Of a stretch of 59,613 nt of DNA, positions 37,626-44,637 are shown piece by piece. Position numbers and translations under genes: made by a program. The stretch spans positions 1-59,613 of the forward strand of contig JAFGHO010000065.1 of NCBI GenBank assembly GCA_016930085.1, given 5' to 3'. This stretch comes from Spirochaetales bacterium. Lineage in GTDB: Bacteria > Spirochaetota > Spirochaetia > SZUA-6 > JAFGRV01. Position 1 is the stretch's first letter; each line of letters starts with the position of its first letter. Below the pieces are notes generated by a model. It saw only the letters and a program-made list of their open reading frames with translations, was not told the origin of the DNA and did no database searches.

Positions 37626-38393
37626 ATGGGAATTTATCTCTATGTGTCGATGTATCCGGAGGCTCTTATCGCTTCTATGCTGACTCCTGAGGAGTTCGGG
37701 AATTATCTTGCAACCGGTACGAAAAAAAGGCAAAGCTGGCAGGAAGCGATATTTTTTGAAGTCGATATGGATGTATGCGGCAAGGTGTTCGATCTCTCGG
37801 ATGTGAAAAGCCGTTGTGTTTCTCATGAGGACGGAGAACCGAAACATTCCATATATTATTCAATTTACCGTGTTCTGGAAAGAACTCCTTTTGAGGCCGT
37901 CAAGGATCTTTATCTGGCGACAAAATCCGGTCGCGTCCTGAAACTCGAGAAAAACCGGGACCTGCCCTCATTCGACCGTCAATGCTATCTGTACCAGGAA
38001 ATAGTCCCCGTACACCCGCGGATCGCGAGCAGCCTGGATCCTTTCAAATTCGCACGGTTCATTACCGACAGCAATAATAAAATTTATGTTCCGAAAATTT
38101 GTTTCGTGGACTTGAGACTCGGTGAACTGGCGGACGACCCGGAGAACGGGAGTATTCATGATCTTCCGTACTCGCAAATCGATCATTTGAGAGAATGCCT
38201 CATGCAGGTCAAACGGGAATCGCAAAAGCATACGAAAACGGTGAACAGAATCCAATCCCAGAGTTTTATCTATAGAACGATAAACAATGGTTTCTTTCTC
38301 GCCGACAACCGGGAAACCCTGTTCTATCCGTTCCCGTCGGAAAAGGAACTCAATACGATCCATTACCAATGGTGGAGAACCGCAACCGAATAA
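37626..38393 (+). CDS. Uncharacterised 255-aa protein upstream of a two-component system
   Basis: I do not recognise this protein. It has no signal peptide or membrane segment and is predicted soluble. It contains three Cys residues, a Pro-poor alpha/beta N-terminal half (MGIYLYVSMYPEALIASMLTP) and aromatic-rich ends. The start is well supported: AAAGGGAG seven bases upstream and a TATAAT box. It is 83 bp ahead of the response-regulator gene and may be part of its transcript, as a sensor accessory or unrelated protein. The frame is intact. Confidence 0.75.
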   Translation: MGIYLYVSMYPEALIASMLTPEEFGNYLATGTKKRQSWQEAIFFEVDMDVCGKVFDLSDVKSRCVSHEDGEPKHSIYYSIYRVLERTPFEAVKDLYLATKSGRVLKLEKNRDLPSFDRQCYLYQEIVPVHPRIASSLDPFKFARFITDSNNKIYVPKICFVDLRLGELADDPENGSIHDLPYSQIDHLRECLMQVKRESQKHTKTVNRIQSQSFIYRTINNGFFLADNRETLFYPFPSEKELNTIHYQWWRTATE

Positions 38394-38476: not shown

Positions 38477-39157
38477 ATGAAAATATTGATTGTGGAAGAC
38501 GATGCAATAACGATGGAGTTCGTCCGCAAAGGATTGCAGGAAAGCGGGTATAATGTGGAATGCGCAGCCGACGGCGAACAGGGGCTATCCCTTGCACGTC
38601 ACGGCCGTTTCGATGCGGCAATCATCGACATCATGATCCCGAAAATCGACGGATTGACAATGATCGAGCGGCTTCGCGCGGAAGGCAGCAATACACCTTT
38701 CCTCATTCTCAGCGCGAAACGGACGGTCGACGACAGGATTTTGGGTTTCAAAAAAGGGGGAGACGATTATCTCACAAAACCGTTCTCTTTTTCGGAGCTT
38801 CTTGTCAGGCTGCAGGCGCTGCTTCGAAGGTCGTCTTACGCGGGCAATCAGAACCGGTTGAGTATCGGAGATTTGACGATCGACATATTTACACGAAAAG
38901 TGAAGCGGGCGGGAAAAGAGATCGAATTGCAGCCGCGGGAGTTTTCACTCCTCGAATATTTTATGCGAAATCCCGGCATCACCCTGTCGAAAACATTACT
39001 TCTGGAGAATATTTGGGGATACCGGTTCGACACCCATACGAATGTGGTCGATGTACTGGTCCATCGGTTGAGAAACAAGATCGACAGGGGCTTCGGCAGG
39101 GAACTCATTCGTACGGTACGGGGCATGGGATATATGATAAAAGATGACAAGGATTAA
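38477..39157 (+). CDS. OmpR/PhoB-family response regulator
   Basis: A 226-residue DNA-binding response regulator. The receiver has the acidic pair at EDD, the phosphorylation site Asp51 (AIIDIMIP), Ser in LILSAK and the conserved Lys in YLTKPF. The C-terminal winged helix (~128-226) reads ELQPREFSLLEYFMRNPG through NVVDVLVHRLRNKID and RTVRGMGYM. It shares 14 bases with the kinase gene. The phased TGTA repeats upstream of the protease gene 1.4 kb downstream suit an OmpR-family dimer chain, so that gene is a likely target. Confidence 0.93.
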   Translation: MKILIVEDDAITMEFVRKGLQESGYNVECAADGEQGLSLARHGRFDAAIIDIMIPKIDGLTMIERLRAEGSNTPFLILSAKRTVDDRILGFKKGGDDYLTKPFSFSELLVRLQALLRRSSYAGNQNRLSIGDLTIDIFTRKVKRAGKEIELQPREFSLLEYFMRNPGITLSKTLLLENIWGYRFDTHTNVVDVLVHRLRNKIDRGFGRELIRTVRGMGYMIKDDKD

Positions 39158-40535
39158 GGCCTCCAAATTCACCATTCGATTGACCCTCTATTATTCGGTG
39201 ATTTTTATCGTCTCGTCGATTGTGATGGTGACGATCGTTTATTTTTTTCTCAGGCATGAATTGAACGGTCATCATTCGCAGGAGATCCGCCATCGTCTCC
39301 TCGAATACTGGGCGCAGTACGAAGCGGGGGGAATCGGACTCGTCGAAAGGGAGTTCGGATTCGAGAAAAAGTATCAGAAAACATATCAGATGCTGCTGCG
39401 AATTGCAGACAAAGGGAACAGAACGCTTTTTTTGGGAGCCTCCGACCAGATTGTCGCGTTCGATATAACGCCGCTTCTGACCGTGCCGTCTCCCGATACC
39501 GGCATCCCTATCCTGCTTTCCTCATCACGGTATCCGTATGATATCGATGTCCGGACGATTGAAATGGAACCGGGAATCTTCCTTCAGGTCGGACTGAGTA
39601 CCGAATTCGTCATGAAAATCGTTTCCGTTATCAGGCAGGGCTTTTTCTTTTTACTCATACCATTCATCTGTTTCGGGATAGCCGGGGGATATTTCATCGC
39701 TTCACGCCTGCTTTCTCCGATAAAAAAACTCATCCGTACCGTATCGTCGATCAAAAGGACAGCCGATATTTCAAAACGGATAAGGGAAACGGGAAGCGGC
39801 GACGAACTCGATACGTTGATAAAGCTTTTTAACGGCATGCTCGACCGGATTGGTTCGCTTATCAACGCGATGCACGTCACCCTCGATAATGTCGCGCACG
39901 ATCTGAAAACACCCCTCACGCGAATACGGGGAATCGCGGAGCGGGCGGCCGGCGATTCCGGGGACGCCGGGAAAAAAGATGAAGCTCTTTTAATGTGCAT
40001 CGAGCAATCCGATATCGTCCTCAAGATGCTCAATACGATCATGGATATTTCCGAATCGGAAGCCGGTGTTATGGCGCTGAAAAAAAGCGATGTCGCCGTC
40101 CGCTATATGATCGATCAGCTGCTTGAGCTATACGGCTATGTCGCGGAAGAAAAAGGGATAGATATCAGTACCGATGTGGAACAACACCTGACGATTTCCG
40201 CGGATCCCGACCGTCTGCGCCAGGCGGTCGGGAACCTCATCGACAACGCGGTCAAATATACCGGTCCCGGAGGGCATGTCGCCGTATACGCATTCGAGGA
40301 GAACGGGTCCGTCGTGATCCGGATAACGGATACCGGGGCCGGTATTCCTCAGGATGAACTCGAGCATATCTGGAAACGGCTTTACCGGATCGACAGAAGC
40401 GGGACGGATACCGGACTCGGGCTGGGGCTGAGTATCGTAAAAGCCGTAGTCACCGCCCACGGCGGCACGGTCGATGTGGCGAGTACCCCCGGCAGGGGAT
40501 CGGTATTCACCATCGTTCTGCCCATTTCCGCCTGA
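39144..40535 (+). CDS. Membrane sensor histidine kinase
   Basis: A 463-residue kinase partner of the preceding regulator. TM1 (~10-33) and TM2 (~163-187) enclose a periplasmic sensor of ~130 residues, followed by a HAMP domain (~188-240). The phospho-accepting His252 is in VAHDLKTPLTRIRG; the ATPase domain has NLIDNAVKYTG, DTGAGIPQDEL and GLGLGLSIVKAVV. All active-site boxes are intact. The layout resembles CpxA/QseC kinases, which monitor envelope conditions. It ends 96 bp before the DegP-like gene. Confidence 0.93.
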   Translation: MTRIKASKFTIRLTLYYSVIFIVSSIVMVTIVYFFLRHELNGHHSQEIRHRLLEYWAQYEAGGIGLVEREFGFEKKYQKTYQMLLRIADKGNRTLFLGASDQIVAFDITPLLTVPSPDTGIPILLSSSRYPYDIDVRTIEMEPGIFLQVGLSTEFVMKIVSVIRQGFFFLLIPFICFGIAGGYFIASRLLSPIKKLIRTVSSIKRTADISKRIRETGSGDELDTLIKLFNGMLDRIGSLINAMHVTLDNVAHDLKTPLTRIRGIAERAAGDSGDAGKKDEALLMCIEQSDIVLKMLNTIMDISESEAGVMALKKSDVAVRYMIDQLLELYGYVAEEKGIDISTDVEQHLTISADPDRLRQAVGNLIDNAVKYTGPGGHVAVYAFEENGSVVIRITDTGAGIPQDELEHIWKRLYRIDRSGTDTGLGLGLSIVKAVVTAHGGTVDVASTPGRGSVFTIVLPISA

Positions 40536-40553
40536 TACCAAACATTACAATTT

Positions 40554-40591
40554 TGTAATCCTCGTGTAAGGCTTATGTAATGTTCGTGTAG
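40554..40591 (+). promoter_or_regulatory. Four 11-bp-phased TGTA repeats: putative response-regulator operator
   Basis: TGTA begins at 40554, 40565, 40576 and 40587, exactly 11 bp apart (TGTAATCCTCG, TGTAAGGCTTA, TGTAATGTTCG, then TGTAG). One-turn direct repeats are how OmpR/PhoB/CpxR-type regulators recognise DNA. A palindrome, ATTACAA-TT-TTGTAAT (40544-40559), overlaps the first repeat. Confidence 0.65.
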
Positions 40592-40631
40592 TACATTCGA
40601 ATTGTCAACAAAATTTGACAGGAGGTGTACC

Positions 40632-42161
40632 ATGAACAGTAAAGGTATTTTTATCGCACGGGAAAGGATACCGGCGGTATCCTTTCTGAAAACGGTGATG
40701 GCGGCGGCCGTCATGTTTCTTCTGTTTTCGGCTTTCACATGCAACAGCGAGACATCGAAGGTGCTGTCGGATATGAACACGGCGCAATCGCAAGACTCAT
40801 CAGGTGTATCGGTCGTGTCGCCTGCAATCCTGCAAAGTTCCTACAGAAACACGGTAAAAAAGGTATTGCCCGTTGTCGTCGAGGTGAATGTCGTCGATAT
40901 CGTCCATGTGACGATTCCGGATTTTTCCCCGTTCTCGTTTTTCTTCGACCAGTTGCCGAACGGCGGAGGTTCGGGCGGGAGTTCCGGTGGTGAAAGGGAA
41001 TACAAGCAGTACGGCCTCGGTTCGGGGGTTATCGTACGCCAGACAAAGGACACCGCATATGTGCTCACCAACAACCATGTGGTCGGTGAAGCTGAAGAAA
41101 TCAGCATTAAACTCCCCGACGGACGCGAGTTCAAGGGGAGTCTCGTCGGGAACGACGAACATAAAGACCTGGCCCTTGTCGCGTTTAAAACGGACAAACC
41201 GGTTCCCGTCGCCGAACTCGGTGATTCATCGATTTTGGAGCCGGGGGATGTGGTTCTCGCAATCGGAAACCCGCTCGGGTTTGAATCGACAGTGACGGCG
41301 GGTATTGTCAGCGCGATCGGAAGAAAATCCGACGGCGGTACCGATATATCGACGTTCACCGATTACATACAGACGGATGCTTCGATCAACCAGGGCAACT
41401 CGGGGGGCGCGCTCGTCAACCTCGAAGGACAGGTGATCGGAATCAATACCTGGATCGCCTCGCCGTCCGGCGGGAATGTGGGAATCGGTTTCGCGATTCC
41501 GATCAACAACGCGAAAACCGCTATCAACGATTTTATCACAAAGGGAAGGATCGAATACGGGTGGCTGGGAATCAATATCGGTGAACCCGTTGACGGGGTC
41601 GCCGACGACATGCACCTTGCGGGAATCAAGGGCGCGATGGTCTTCGATGTCTTTACCGGTTCACCGGCGGACAAGGCTGACATATTCCCCGGTGACTTTA
41701 TTACGGTAATAGACGGGAAGCAGGTGTCGGATTCTCAGGAATTGATATTCACCGTATCGAAACTCACACCAGGACAGACGGTAGCGCTGAAACTCATAAG
41801 GCAGGGTAAGGAAAAACTGGTCGAGGTCGAGATCGCAAGCCGCGGGGACGAAAAATCGATCAAGGATAAAGCGGCAAATCTCTGGCCGGGGATGACCGTT
41901 GTCGGCCTTACCGACGATATCAGAAAACAGCTGAACCTGAAGGGTAATATCGGAAACGTCGTTGTCGGTTCGGTCGTTATGGGAAGTCCTGCGGATATCG
42001 CCGGTTTCAAGGGCGGGGATATTATCCGCACGATCAACAAGAAACCGGTCGCTTCGACGGCGGATTTTTACAGATTGTTTGCCGACAGGGAGAGAGAAAA
42101 GGTGTTCACGATATACAGGGAAGGCCGGGAGCTCATTTTAGGACTTGTAAGGCAGTCATGA
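40632..42161 (+). CDS. degP: HtrA/DegP-family periplasmic serine protease
   Basis: A protease and chaperone for misfolded envelope proteins. Signal peptide ending near SAFTC, possibly a lipobox. The trypsin-like domain has the complete triad His149 (NNHVVG), Asp179 (KDLALV) and Ser257 (GNSGGALV), preceded by a GlySer-rich loop. Two PDZ domains follow (~300-390 and ~410-509; second: GNIGNVVVGSV..GGDIIRTINKKPV). The start at 40632 has a textbook AGGAGG; the reading frame extends 10 codons upstream without a start signal. Sits directly after the CpxRA-like pair and before the proton ATPase gene (19 bp), so stress induction is likely. Confidence 0.95.
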   Translation: MNSKGIFIARERIPAVSFLKTVMAAAVMFLLFSAFTCNSETSKVLSDMNTAQSQDSSGVSVVSPAILQSSYRNTVKKVLPVVVEVNVVDIVHVTIPDFSPFSFFFDQLPNGGGSGGSSGGEREYKQYGLGSGVIVRQTKDTAYVLTNNHVVGEAEEISIKLPDGREFKGSLVGNDEHKDLALVAFKTDKPVPVAELGDSSILEPGDVVLAIGNPLGFESTVTAGIVSAIGRKSDGGTDISTFTDYIQTDASINQGNSGGALVNLEGQVIGINTWIASPSGGNVGIGFAIPINNAKTAINDFITKGRIEYGWLGINIGEPVDGVADDMHLAGIKGAMVFDVFTGSPADKADIFPGDFITVIDGKQVSDSQELIFTVSKLTPGQTVALKLIRQGKEKLVEVEIASRGDEKSIKDKAANLWPGMTVVGLTDDIRKQLNLKGNIGNVVVGSVVMGSPADIAGFKGGDIIRTINKKPVASTADFYRLFADREREKVFTIYREGRELILGLVRQS

Positions 42162-42180: not shown

Positions 42181-44637
42181 ATGAAAACCTTGAAAAAGAA
42201 ACTGCGAAAAAGCATCGTGACGGACCGGATATCGGCACAGATGAAATTATACAGAAGTCTCTCCGTCGGCGAGACGATGCGAAAGCTTCAAACGACTCCG
42301 GAAGGTCTTGACGATAGGGAAGCGGAAAGAAGGGGGGCCGAATACGGATACAACAGGATCGAAGAAAAAACCACACATCCCCTTCTGAAGCTTCTCTCGT
42401 ACTTCTGGGGCCCAATACCGTGGATGATTGAAATTGCCGGCGTGCTTTCCGGTATTCTGGGCAGGTGGGAAGATACGGCCGTTATCGCCGTGTTACTCCT
42501 GGTCAATGTCGCGACCGCGTTCTGGGAAGAATATAAAGCGAGTTCGACTATTGCGGCGTTGAAAAAAAGGATGGCTGTCAGTTCGCGTGTCAAAAGGAAC
42601 GGAAACTGGATCATGAAAGGGGCGGAGGAGATCGTTCCCGGCGATATACTCCGCCTCAGGATCGGGGATATCGTCCCCGCCGATGTCAAACTTCTTGCGG
42701 GAGAATCGATACAGGTGGACCAGTCGGCCCTGACCGGTGAAGCCTTTCCGGTCGTTCTTTCCCCATCGTCGATCGCTTTTTCCGGATCGATCGTGAAACA
42801 GGGAGAGATCGATGCGGTAGTTTACGCAACGGGAATGAATACGTACTTCGGACAGACGACACACCTCGTCAAGGATACGAAGGAAAGCAGTCATTTTCAA
42901 AAGGCGATACTCAGAATCGGTAATTTTCTTATTGTCAGTGCATTTTTGCTTATCATCGTCATACTCACCGTATCGATGTTCCGGGGTATCGATATTCTCA
43001 CCAATCTTCAGTTCTCCCTCATCCTCCTGGTCGCAGCGATTCCCGTGGCGATGCCGACGGTACTCTCGATAACAATGGCGATCGGCGCCAGGGCATTGGC
43101 GAAAAAAAAGGTGATTGTCAGCCATCTCTCCTCGATTGAAGAACTCGCGGGCATCGATATACTTTGCTCGGACAAGACGGGGACCCTGACCCGAAACAAA
43201 CTCACCGTCGGCAAACCGTTTGTCGTGAACGGGTACGGCGAAGACAAACTTTTTCTTTTCGGCTCACTCGCGTCGAGAAAAGAGGACGGCGACGCCATCG
43301 ACACCGCCGTCATCGAAAGCAGCGCGGCTTCACTGCGGAATTATACGATACGGCATTTTTCACCCTTCGATCCGGTGCATAAACGTACGGAAGCGCATGT
43401 TGAAACGCCGGAAGGAAAGGATTTTTATGTGACAAAAGGGGCCCCGCAGGTGATTCTGGATATGTCGTCAAACAGGGAAGAGGTGAAGGATGCCGTCGGC
43501 AGAGAAATACGGGGATTTGCCGCAAAGGGGTACCGTTCGCTGGGAGTCGCGTACGCCGAAAAACCGGAAGACTGGCAATTTGCGGGTATTATTCCGCTTT
43601 ACGATCCGCTCAGGCGCGATTCAAGGGCGATGGTCGACAAGACGCGAAAAATGGGCATCGAGGTCAAGATGATTACGGGCGATCATGATATAATCGCCGG
43701 ACAGGTCGCGGGTGAACTTGGTCTCGGCGGGAAGATCATGAAAGCGGACGGGCTTTTGAAGGATGACGAGGAGGCGAACGTGAGAAACATCGAGGAGGCT
43801 TCGGGCGTCGCGCAGGTGTATCCGGAGCATAAATACACGATTGTCGATCTTCTCAAACAACACGATCACATTGTGGGCATGACCGGAGACGGGGTGAATG
43901 ACGCCCCCGCGCTCAAGAAGGCGGATGTCGGTATCGCCGTTTCAGGTTCCACGGATGCCGCCCGTTCCGCAGCGGATATCATTTTACTAAGGCCGGGGTT
44001 GTCCGTCATCATTGATGCGATCAGGGAAAGCAGGAAAATCTTCAGCCGTATGACGAGTTACGCAACATACCGCATTGCCGAATCGATCAGGATTCTTCTC
44101 TTTATGACGATGTCGATTCTGGCGTTCAATTTTTATCCCGTCACGGCGATCATGATCGTACTTATTGCGTTACTGAACGACGGTGCGATCGTATCCATCG
44201 CATATGACAGGGCGACGGCCTCAAGGAAGCCGGAACACTGGCACATTCCCGAGCTAATCACCGTTTCGTCGATACTCGGGGTTATGGGCGTGGCCGCATC
44301 GTTTTTGCTGTTTTACATCGGGGAGAATATATTCCATCTCGACAGGGATATCATACGGACACTCATCTATCTGAAATTATCCGTTGCGGGTCATCTTACG
44401 ATTTTCATAACGAGAACAAAGGGTCATTTTTGGACCCAGCGTCCCTCGGCAGTCCTTTTTTGGGCCGTCGTCATAACGCAGCTGGTAGCGACGCTTATCG
44501 CGGTCTACGGCGTATTCATGATGCCCCTTGGCTGGGGATGGGCCCTTATTGTCTGGGGGTATGCGATCGTCTGGTTCATTATAAACGATATCGTAAAAGC
44601 GGCGGCGGTAAGGGTGTTCCGTCTATATCGAACATAA
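42181..44637 (+). CDS. P-type (type III) proton-pumping ATPase
   Basis: An 818-residue P-type ATPase of the plasma-membrane H+-efflux group known from plants, fungi, archaea and some bacteria. It shows the phosphorylated Asp331 in CSDKTGTLTRN, TGEAFPV, MITGDH, TGDGVNDAPALKKADVG and about ten transmembrane segments. The N-terminal ~40 residues and the actuator domain fit the type IIIA layout; no metal-binding CPC motif is present, which argues against metal efflux. Ribosome-binding site AAGGAG; 19 bp after the protease gene, so in the same operon. It would expel protons or help set membrane potential under stress (inference). Confidence 0.88.
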   Translation: MKTLKKKLRKSIVTDRISAQMKLYRSLSVGETMRKLQTTPEGLDDREAERRGAEYGYNRIEEKTTHPLLKLLSYFWGPIPWMIEIAGVLSGILGRWEDTAVIAVLLLVNVATAFWEEYKASSTIAALKKRMAVSSRVKRNGNWIMKGAEEIVPGDILRLRIGDIVPADVKLLAGESIQVDQSALTGEAFPVVLSPSSIAFSGSIVKQGEIDAVVYATGMNTYFGQTTHLVKDTKESSHFQKAILRIGNFLIVSAFLLIIVILTVSMFRGIDILTNLQFSLILLVAAIPVAMPTVLSITMAIGARALAKKKVIVSHLSSIEELAGIDILCSDKTGTLTRNKLTVGKPFVVNGYGEDKLFLFGSLASRKEDGDAIDTAVIESSAASLRNYTIRHFSPFDPVHKRTEAHVETPEGKDFYVTKGAPQVILDMSSNREEVKDAVGREIRGFAAKGYRSLGVAYAEKPEDWQFAGIIPLYDPLRRDSRAMVDKTRKMGIEVKMITGDHDIIAGQVAGELGLGGKIMKADGLLKDDEEANVRNIEEASGVAQVYPEHKYTIVDLLKQHDHIVGMTGDGVNDAPALKKADVGIAVSGSTDAARSAADIILLRPGLSVIIDAIRESRKIFSRMTSYATYRIAESIRILLFMTMSILAFNFYPVTAIMIVLIALLNDGAIVSIAYDRATASRKPEHWHIPELITVSSILGVMGVAASFLLFYIGENIFHLDRDIIRTLIYLKLSVAGHLTIFITRTKGHFWTQRPSAVLFWAVVITQLVATLIAVYGVFMMPLGWGWALIVWGYAIVWFIINDIVKAAAVRVFRLYRT

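Follow-up and report, generated by a model that had tools for sequence, protein, structure and literature searches.

What controls degP in this spirochaete, and does the array of short repeats in front of the gene belong to a CpxRA-like envelope-stress circuit, as the initial annotation of this DNA had suggested? CpxR activates degP in E. coli, and two-component control of HtrA proteases is found in several lineages (CpxRA, CssRS-htrA, CiaRH-htrA and MprAB-pepD). CssRS, CiaRH and MprAB are independent OmpR-family systems that belong to other regulator branches and use other binding sites than the system described here. To our knowledge, little is known about the regulation of the envelope stress response in spirochaetes. 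Our analysis indicates that a CusR/HprR-type regulator probably turns on DegP via a promoter switch that is conserved in many spirochaetes. In the window, i.e., the whole 59,613-nucleotide stretch of DNA analyzed, the following genes surround the site:

38477..39157, forward strand: OmpR-family response regulator, CusR/HprR-like (Pfam PF00072 and PF00486; TIGR01387; sequence identities; tree)
39144..40535, forward strand: membrane sensor histidine kinase with a predicted extracytoplasmic PAS-type sensor domain (HAMP, HisKA and HATPase_c; structure model)
40632..42161, forward strand: periplasmic serine protease of the DegP/HtrA type carrying two PDZ domains; conserved predicted target (TIGR02037; Pfam)
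42181..44637, forward strand: plasma-membrane-type proton P-type ATPase (TIGR01647, 988 bits)

The regulator and kinase genes overlap by 14 bp. The protease scored 439.3 bits against TIGR02037, above the cut-off of 416.2, and Pfam recognized a trypsin-like domain (Trypsin_2) and two PDZ domains, which identifies it as a DegP/HtrA (Do) protease. The proton ATPase gene lies 19 bp downstream of degP and is possibly co-transcribed with it in the window's genome. It had initially been counted as part of the circuit; as no ATPase homologue was detected near degP in any of the 16 relatives examined (0/16), it was discarded as a conserved member. Just upstream of the regulator gene, a 255-aa protein is encoded (37626-38393) that has no Pfam or NCBIfam match; no homologue was found beside the orthologous loci and the gene was not retained as a conserved neighbor.

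The gap between the kinase stop codon (40533-40535) and the protease ATG (40632) comprises 96 bp (40536-40631) and contains these elements:

40544..40559, forward strand: palindrome ATTACA-N4-TGTAAT, predicted core operator of the HprR/CusR box type CATTACAAAATTGTAATG (aligned promoters; box from PMC9302797)
40565..40569, forward strand: second direct half-site at +11, here TGTAA (GTAA or GAAA in 21/26 promoters; also present at E. coli hiuH and cusC)
40576..40580, forward strand: third direct half-site at +22, TGTAA (GTAA or GAAA in 22/26 promoters)
40587..40590, forward strand: fourth TGTA at +33, unconserved, against the -10 element (TGTA in 1/26 promoters, the window itself)
40592..40597, forward strand: predicted -10 hexamer TACATT, 11 bp past the third half-site (26 gap-free aligned promoters)
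40620..40625, forward strand: ribosome-binding site AGGAGG (from the sequence)

The four TGTA copies that had first been noticed in this gap were confirmed at 40554, 40565, 40576 and 40587, with a spacing of exactly 11 bp. When the gap was shuffled 20,000 times with dinucleotides preserved, four in-phase copies of any 4-mer at a step of 9-13 bp never arose, and three such copies occurred in 71 of the 20,000 shuffles. When the whole 5.36-Mb genome was scanned for further arrays, as had been proposed, the exact four-copy array was found only before degP, the runner-up carrying one mismatch. The palindrome overlaps the array in such a way that its right half is the first TGTA, and its only other genomic copy (contig C40) lies within coding sequence. 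Neither a sigma-70 site nor a good -35 hexamer was found in the gap, and the degP transcript would be expected to start near 40604. An inverted repeat, TGTCAA-N6-TTGACA (40603-40620), is located at this predicted start and the ribosome-binding site; no counterpart was apparent in the aligned gaps of the relatives.

One of the genomes ranked in the same class contains a contig identical to a plasmid of Borrelia turicatae, which assigns the window to the class Spirochaetia. Conservation of the element was analyzed in a set of 97 genomes (96 relatives plus the genome of the window), in which a kinase orthologue was defined by E<=1e-55 and an alignment starting in the N-terminal part of the kinase. 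Such orthologues were present in 26 genomes besides the window's, and the gene order regulator-kinase-degP was kept in most of them. Seventeen kinase-degP gaps aligned gap-free over 62 columns with fixed spacing between palindrome and -10 hexamer, and the gap-free alignment could be extended to 26 promoters. The common layout is TTACA-N4-TGTAA, half-sites at +11 and +22, then 11 bp and the -10 hexamer. The palindrome is the best conserved part (left half TTACA and right half TGTA each in 25/26 promoters), while in the -10 hexamer the initial TA is invariant and the final T is kept in 24/26; at +11, many relatives have GAAAG instead of TGTAA. The fourth TGTA, which ends one base ahead of the -10 hexamer, was seen in the window alone and hence falls outside the conserved signal; it is best read as chance or promoter sequence. 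Thus, the proposal that all four repeats are sites is not supported, only the first three being conserved.

Furthermore, a sequence model (R1) was built from the 17 kinase-degP gaps and run over the 97 genomes. In nine of nine further genomes with a kinase orthologue and degP, none of them used in training, the top R1 match was located directly before degP. In six of these nine, degP is clearly unlinked from the kinase gene (G012, G030, G055, G067, G072 and G090); it is linked in G083 and G086, and in G047 the kinase gene lies at a contig edge and is cut by the contig end. Since the element precedes unlinked degP genes, it follows degP and not the kinase gene. Six genomes have no degP downstream of the kinase gene, and the sequence found there instead does not contain the element. 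Among the 85 degP-bearing genomes, 26 possessed kinase and motif, none the kinase only, one the motif only and 58 neither (9, 0, 1 and 58, respectively, without the training set), counts that ignore the shared ancestry of the genomes, so that nominal P values for co-occurrence overstate the case. All 59 degP-bearing genomes without a kinase orthologue lacked the element at degP; the motif-only genome, G034, carries it upstream of the regulator orthologue and not at degP. The threshold for kinase orthologues was chosen with the data in view, and counting G003 and G004 as carriers changes the score to 26/28. In these two members of the window's family, the matches to the kinase are partial and weaker (31-35%), and degP has no motif. 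Their regulator relatives display an altered recognition helix (NVVEARICKLREKID and NVVEARICKLRDKID) and, with the degP element absent, appear to represent a natural specificity variant.

Sampling beyond the close relatives gave a similar picture. When 149 genomes were drawn evenly from the phylum, the kinase was detected in three and the motif (E<=1e-4) in the same three; G133 and G154 from this draw belong to a different class, and in both the element sits between kinase and degP. A search at the level of the order led back to the 26 genomes already known, and a scan of genome contigs with the kinase as query gave distant matches only. The computed results comprise the element as such and how well it is conserved, its association with degP and the fact that it co-occurs with regulator and kinase; conservation and co-occurrence support the earlier view of a conserved regulatory element that is tied to the adjacent OmpR-family regulator and kinase and has degP as its target.

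The identity of the operator was addressed by comparison with E. coli. The recognition sequence is common to HprR and CusR (PMC8249747), the published box being CATTACAAAATTGTAATG (PMC9302797), and the degP palindrome is identical to this box type. Moreover, R1, which contains spirochaete DNA only, recognized the hiuH promoter of E. coli (29.1 bits, E 9e-9). In this promoter, TGTAAGG stands at +11 behind the palindrome, and a -10-like TATCCT starts 48 bp after the start of the left half-site, as compared to 47 bp in the window; the cusC promoter has the same layout, namely TGACA-N4-TGTCA, TGTCA at +11 and TAAAGT at 48 bp (both E. coli -10 elements were read from the sequence). The regulator itself showed 44% identity to CusR, 43% to HprR and 33% to CpxR. 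In a tree with 11 E. coli regulators, its orthologues were placed as sister to CusR plus HprR (support 92/74), and its recognition helix TNVVDVLVHRLRNKID resembles those of HprR (TNTVDVAIRRLRAKVD) and CusR (TNAIDVAVKRLRGKID) and is unlike that of CpxR. Its best NCBIfam match was TIGR01387 with 241.6 bits, below the cut-off of 279.2, and the regulator is therefore called CusR/HprR-like and not a member of that family. Among the E. coli OmpR-family regulators, CusR and HprR thus appear to be its nearest relatives.

These comparisons bear on two other explanations of the site. Because the palindrome equals the HprR/CusR box, R1 finds hiuH and the regulator is 43-44% identical to the E. coli proteins, the palindrome that overlaps the array most likely forms the core of the operator and is not the site of a second factor, as had been suggested. 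A different protein, e.g., a repressor, binding the palindrome while the two-component system acts on the direct repeats only would be in line with that earlier suggestion and with the fact that palindromes are typical of many repressors. However, the distance between palindrome and tandem half-sites is constant throughout the 26 promoters, the two are present or absent together, and the same composite is found in the hiuH and cusC promoters of E. coli, to which HprR and CusR bind; we consider this explanation very unlikely and regard the palindrome as the most conserved part of one operator, holding the first TGTA.

Very improbable, too, is a true CpxRA system, in which a CpxR-like regulator would bind direct GTAAA-type repeats at degP. 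The shared target gene, the adjoining two-component system, the resemblance of TGTAA to GTAAA and the established activation of degP by CpxR would fit such a system, but the regulator is 33% identical to CpxR, and 24% in the DNA-binding domain, vs. 44%/40% for CusR/HprR, the operator, with its palindromic core and steps of 11 bp, is identical to the HprR/CusR box and is not of the GTAAA-N5-GTAAA kind, and CpxA is missing from the best models for the kinase. Given this identity and the distance from CpxR in the tree, orthology of the regulator with CpxR was rejected. In its functional logic (two-component system, envelope stress, periplasmic DegP), the circuit would resemble CpxRA-degP of E. 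coli, but the regulator is from another family, and the operator sequence and the order of the genes are different as well. The term CpxRA-like may hence be kept for the proposed function, from envelope stress to degP, whereas in descent and operator the circuit appears to be CusR/HprR-like.

Tandem repeats of this kind also occur elsewhere. In G155 (C14:87190-87240), TGTAA-N6 repeats without a palindrome precede a pstS-like gene with an adjoining phoU-like gene and probably represent a PhoB box, which indicates that tandem repeats alone are not specific. It could accordingly be asked whether the degP array is a PhoB box as well, so that phosphate starvation would drive degP: the G155 pstS site, with its TGTAA/TGTAA/TGTAA, is a weak R1 match, showing that PhoB boxes of the phylum can look alike, and the spacing from half-site to -10 hexamer is the same as in phoA. 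Yet the palindrome, the most conserved part at degP, is lacking at the pstS site, and the degP element is missing wherever a regulator and kinase of the adjacent type are missing, which makes control by PhoB highly improbable.

In its sequence geometry, the site corresponds to an OmpR/PhoB-type class II activated promoter: the tandem 11-bp half-sites stop roughly 11 bp short of the -10 hexamer, no good -35 element is present, and TGTAA-N11-TACATT in the window parallels TGTCA-N11-TATAGT in phoA. Following this, we propose that the regulator, once phosphorylated by its kinase, would bind the palindrome TTACA-N4-TGTAA; regulator dimers would spread to both downstream half-sites (+11 and +22), which share a helix face with the palindrome, and occupy the -35 position in place of the missing element, and RNA polymerase would be recruited to the weakly supported -10 hexamer TACATT as by PhoB at phoA. 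As the outcome, the DegP protease/chaperone would be induced by envelope stress sensed via the extracytoplasmic PAS domain of the kinase. It is probable that positions 40544-40597 constitute a degP operator-promoter bound by the adjacent CusR/HprR-like regulator, which would induce DegP under envelope stress; binding by the regulator, activation rather than repression and the nature of the signal are inferred. The opposite sign, i.e., repression of degP, or action in both directions depending on the phosphorylation state, is conceivable but unlikely. When unphosphorylated, CusR has the cusR/cusC spacer as its sole binding site and is described as repressing it (PMC8249747), and in the window the array extends close to the -10 element. 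Against this, the half-sites stop 11 bp before the -10 hexamer, the geometry of PhoB-activated phoA, and a gap without a good -35 hexamer fits activation.

With regard to the signal, the sensor domain of the kinase was modelled as an extracytoplasmic PAS-type domain with a mean pLDDT of 87. A fold search returned WalK sensors at the top, the CusS sensor lower, and PhoQ and many other PAS sensors; as the matches are spread over so many PAS sensors, no ligand is named. The orthologue alignment of the sensor domain contained no conserved His, Met or Cys, so that sensing of metal (copper) or peroxide is not indicated; copper sensing by the kinase was set aside, although a metal might still be the signal.

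Concerning further targets, R1 was strong only at the degP site in the window's genome, and a wider regulon was discarded there; degP appears to be the only clear target. Autoregulation was discarded likewise, as no R1 match lies upstream of the window's regulator gene. Near-perfect 11-bp TGTA arrays without a palindrome are present in the same genome about 110 bp before a LiaF-like gene (C125:38608-38644) and before a gene for a secreted VWA-domain protein (C28:67000-67047). The tandem arrays on C28, C125, C128 and C69 have no palindrome and no relevant R1 score and were excluded as regulon sites. In relatives, strong copies of the degP element were observed before MoxR/DUF58/Bat-type operons in G066 (C80) and G083 (C138), which are likely a second target in that family, and G066 has a further R1 match before an ABC transporter operon (gene names were read from the translations). 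In G034 (C10), the element is placed between the regulator orthologue and a divergent gene, which suggests autoregulation; this genome yielded no complete kinase orthologue, and R1 did not score strongly at its degP. Taken together, the matches before the MoxR/DUF58/Bat and ABC operons and at the G034 regulator suggest a small envelope regulon outside the window's genome.

Compared to HprSR and CusSR of E. coli (hiuH-msrPQ and cusCFBA), the system of the window has the same palindrome with a half-site 11 bp downstream, nearly the same distance to the -10 hexamer, a regulator of 43-44% identity with a matching recognition helix, and a regulator gene that adjoins the target. It differs in that the target is degP and not metal efflux or methionine sulfoxide repair, in the extra half-site at +22 and in the sensor domain without conserved His, Met or Cys. 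A degP gene adjoining a kinase and a regulator described as CusS/CusR-like, as in the window, has been reported for Desulfamplus magnetovallimortis BW-1, where DegP was 2.2-fold up in copper-sulfide-producing cells; this organism belongs to a different phylum, and an operator is not among the features given in the part of the description available (PMC9534983). No report of the operator found here or of its distribution in spirochaetes was found in the open-access literature searched. Whether the locus represents a previously undescribed envelope-stress system of the Spirochaetota, for which a regulator of the CusR/HprR type, along with its palindrome-plus-tandem operator, was redirected from defence against metals and oxidants to the quality control of proteins under a new, non-metal signal (with degP as target nearly everywhere and MoxR/Bat-type or transporter operons in some genomes), is in our judgement an evenly balanced question. 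The analysis provides a base-level operator and promoter together with a regulator/kinase pair and its probable target gene, which are found again in at least two classes of the phylum. As E. coli and the Spirochaetota would have one operator design in common but differ in the target gene, the locus may serve as a case of two-component rewiring.
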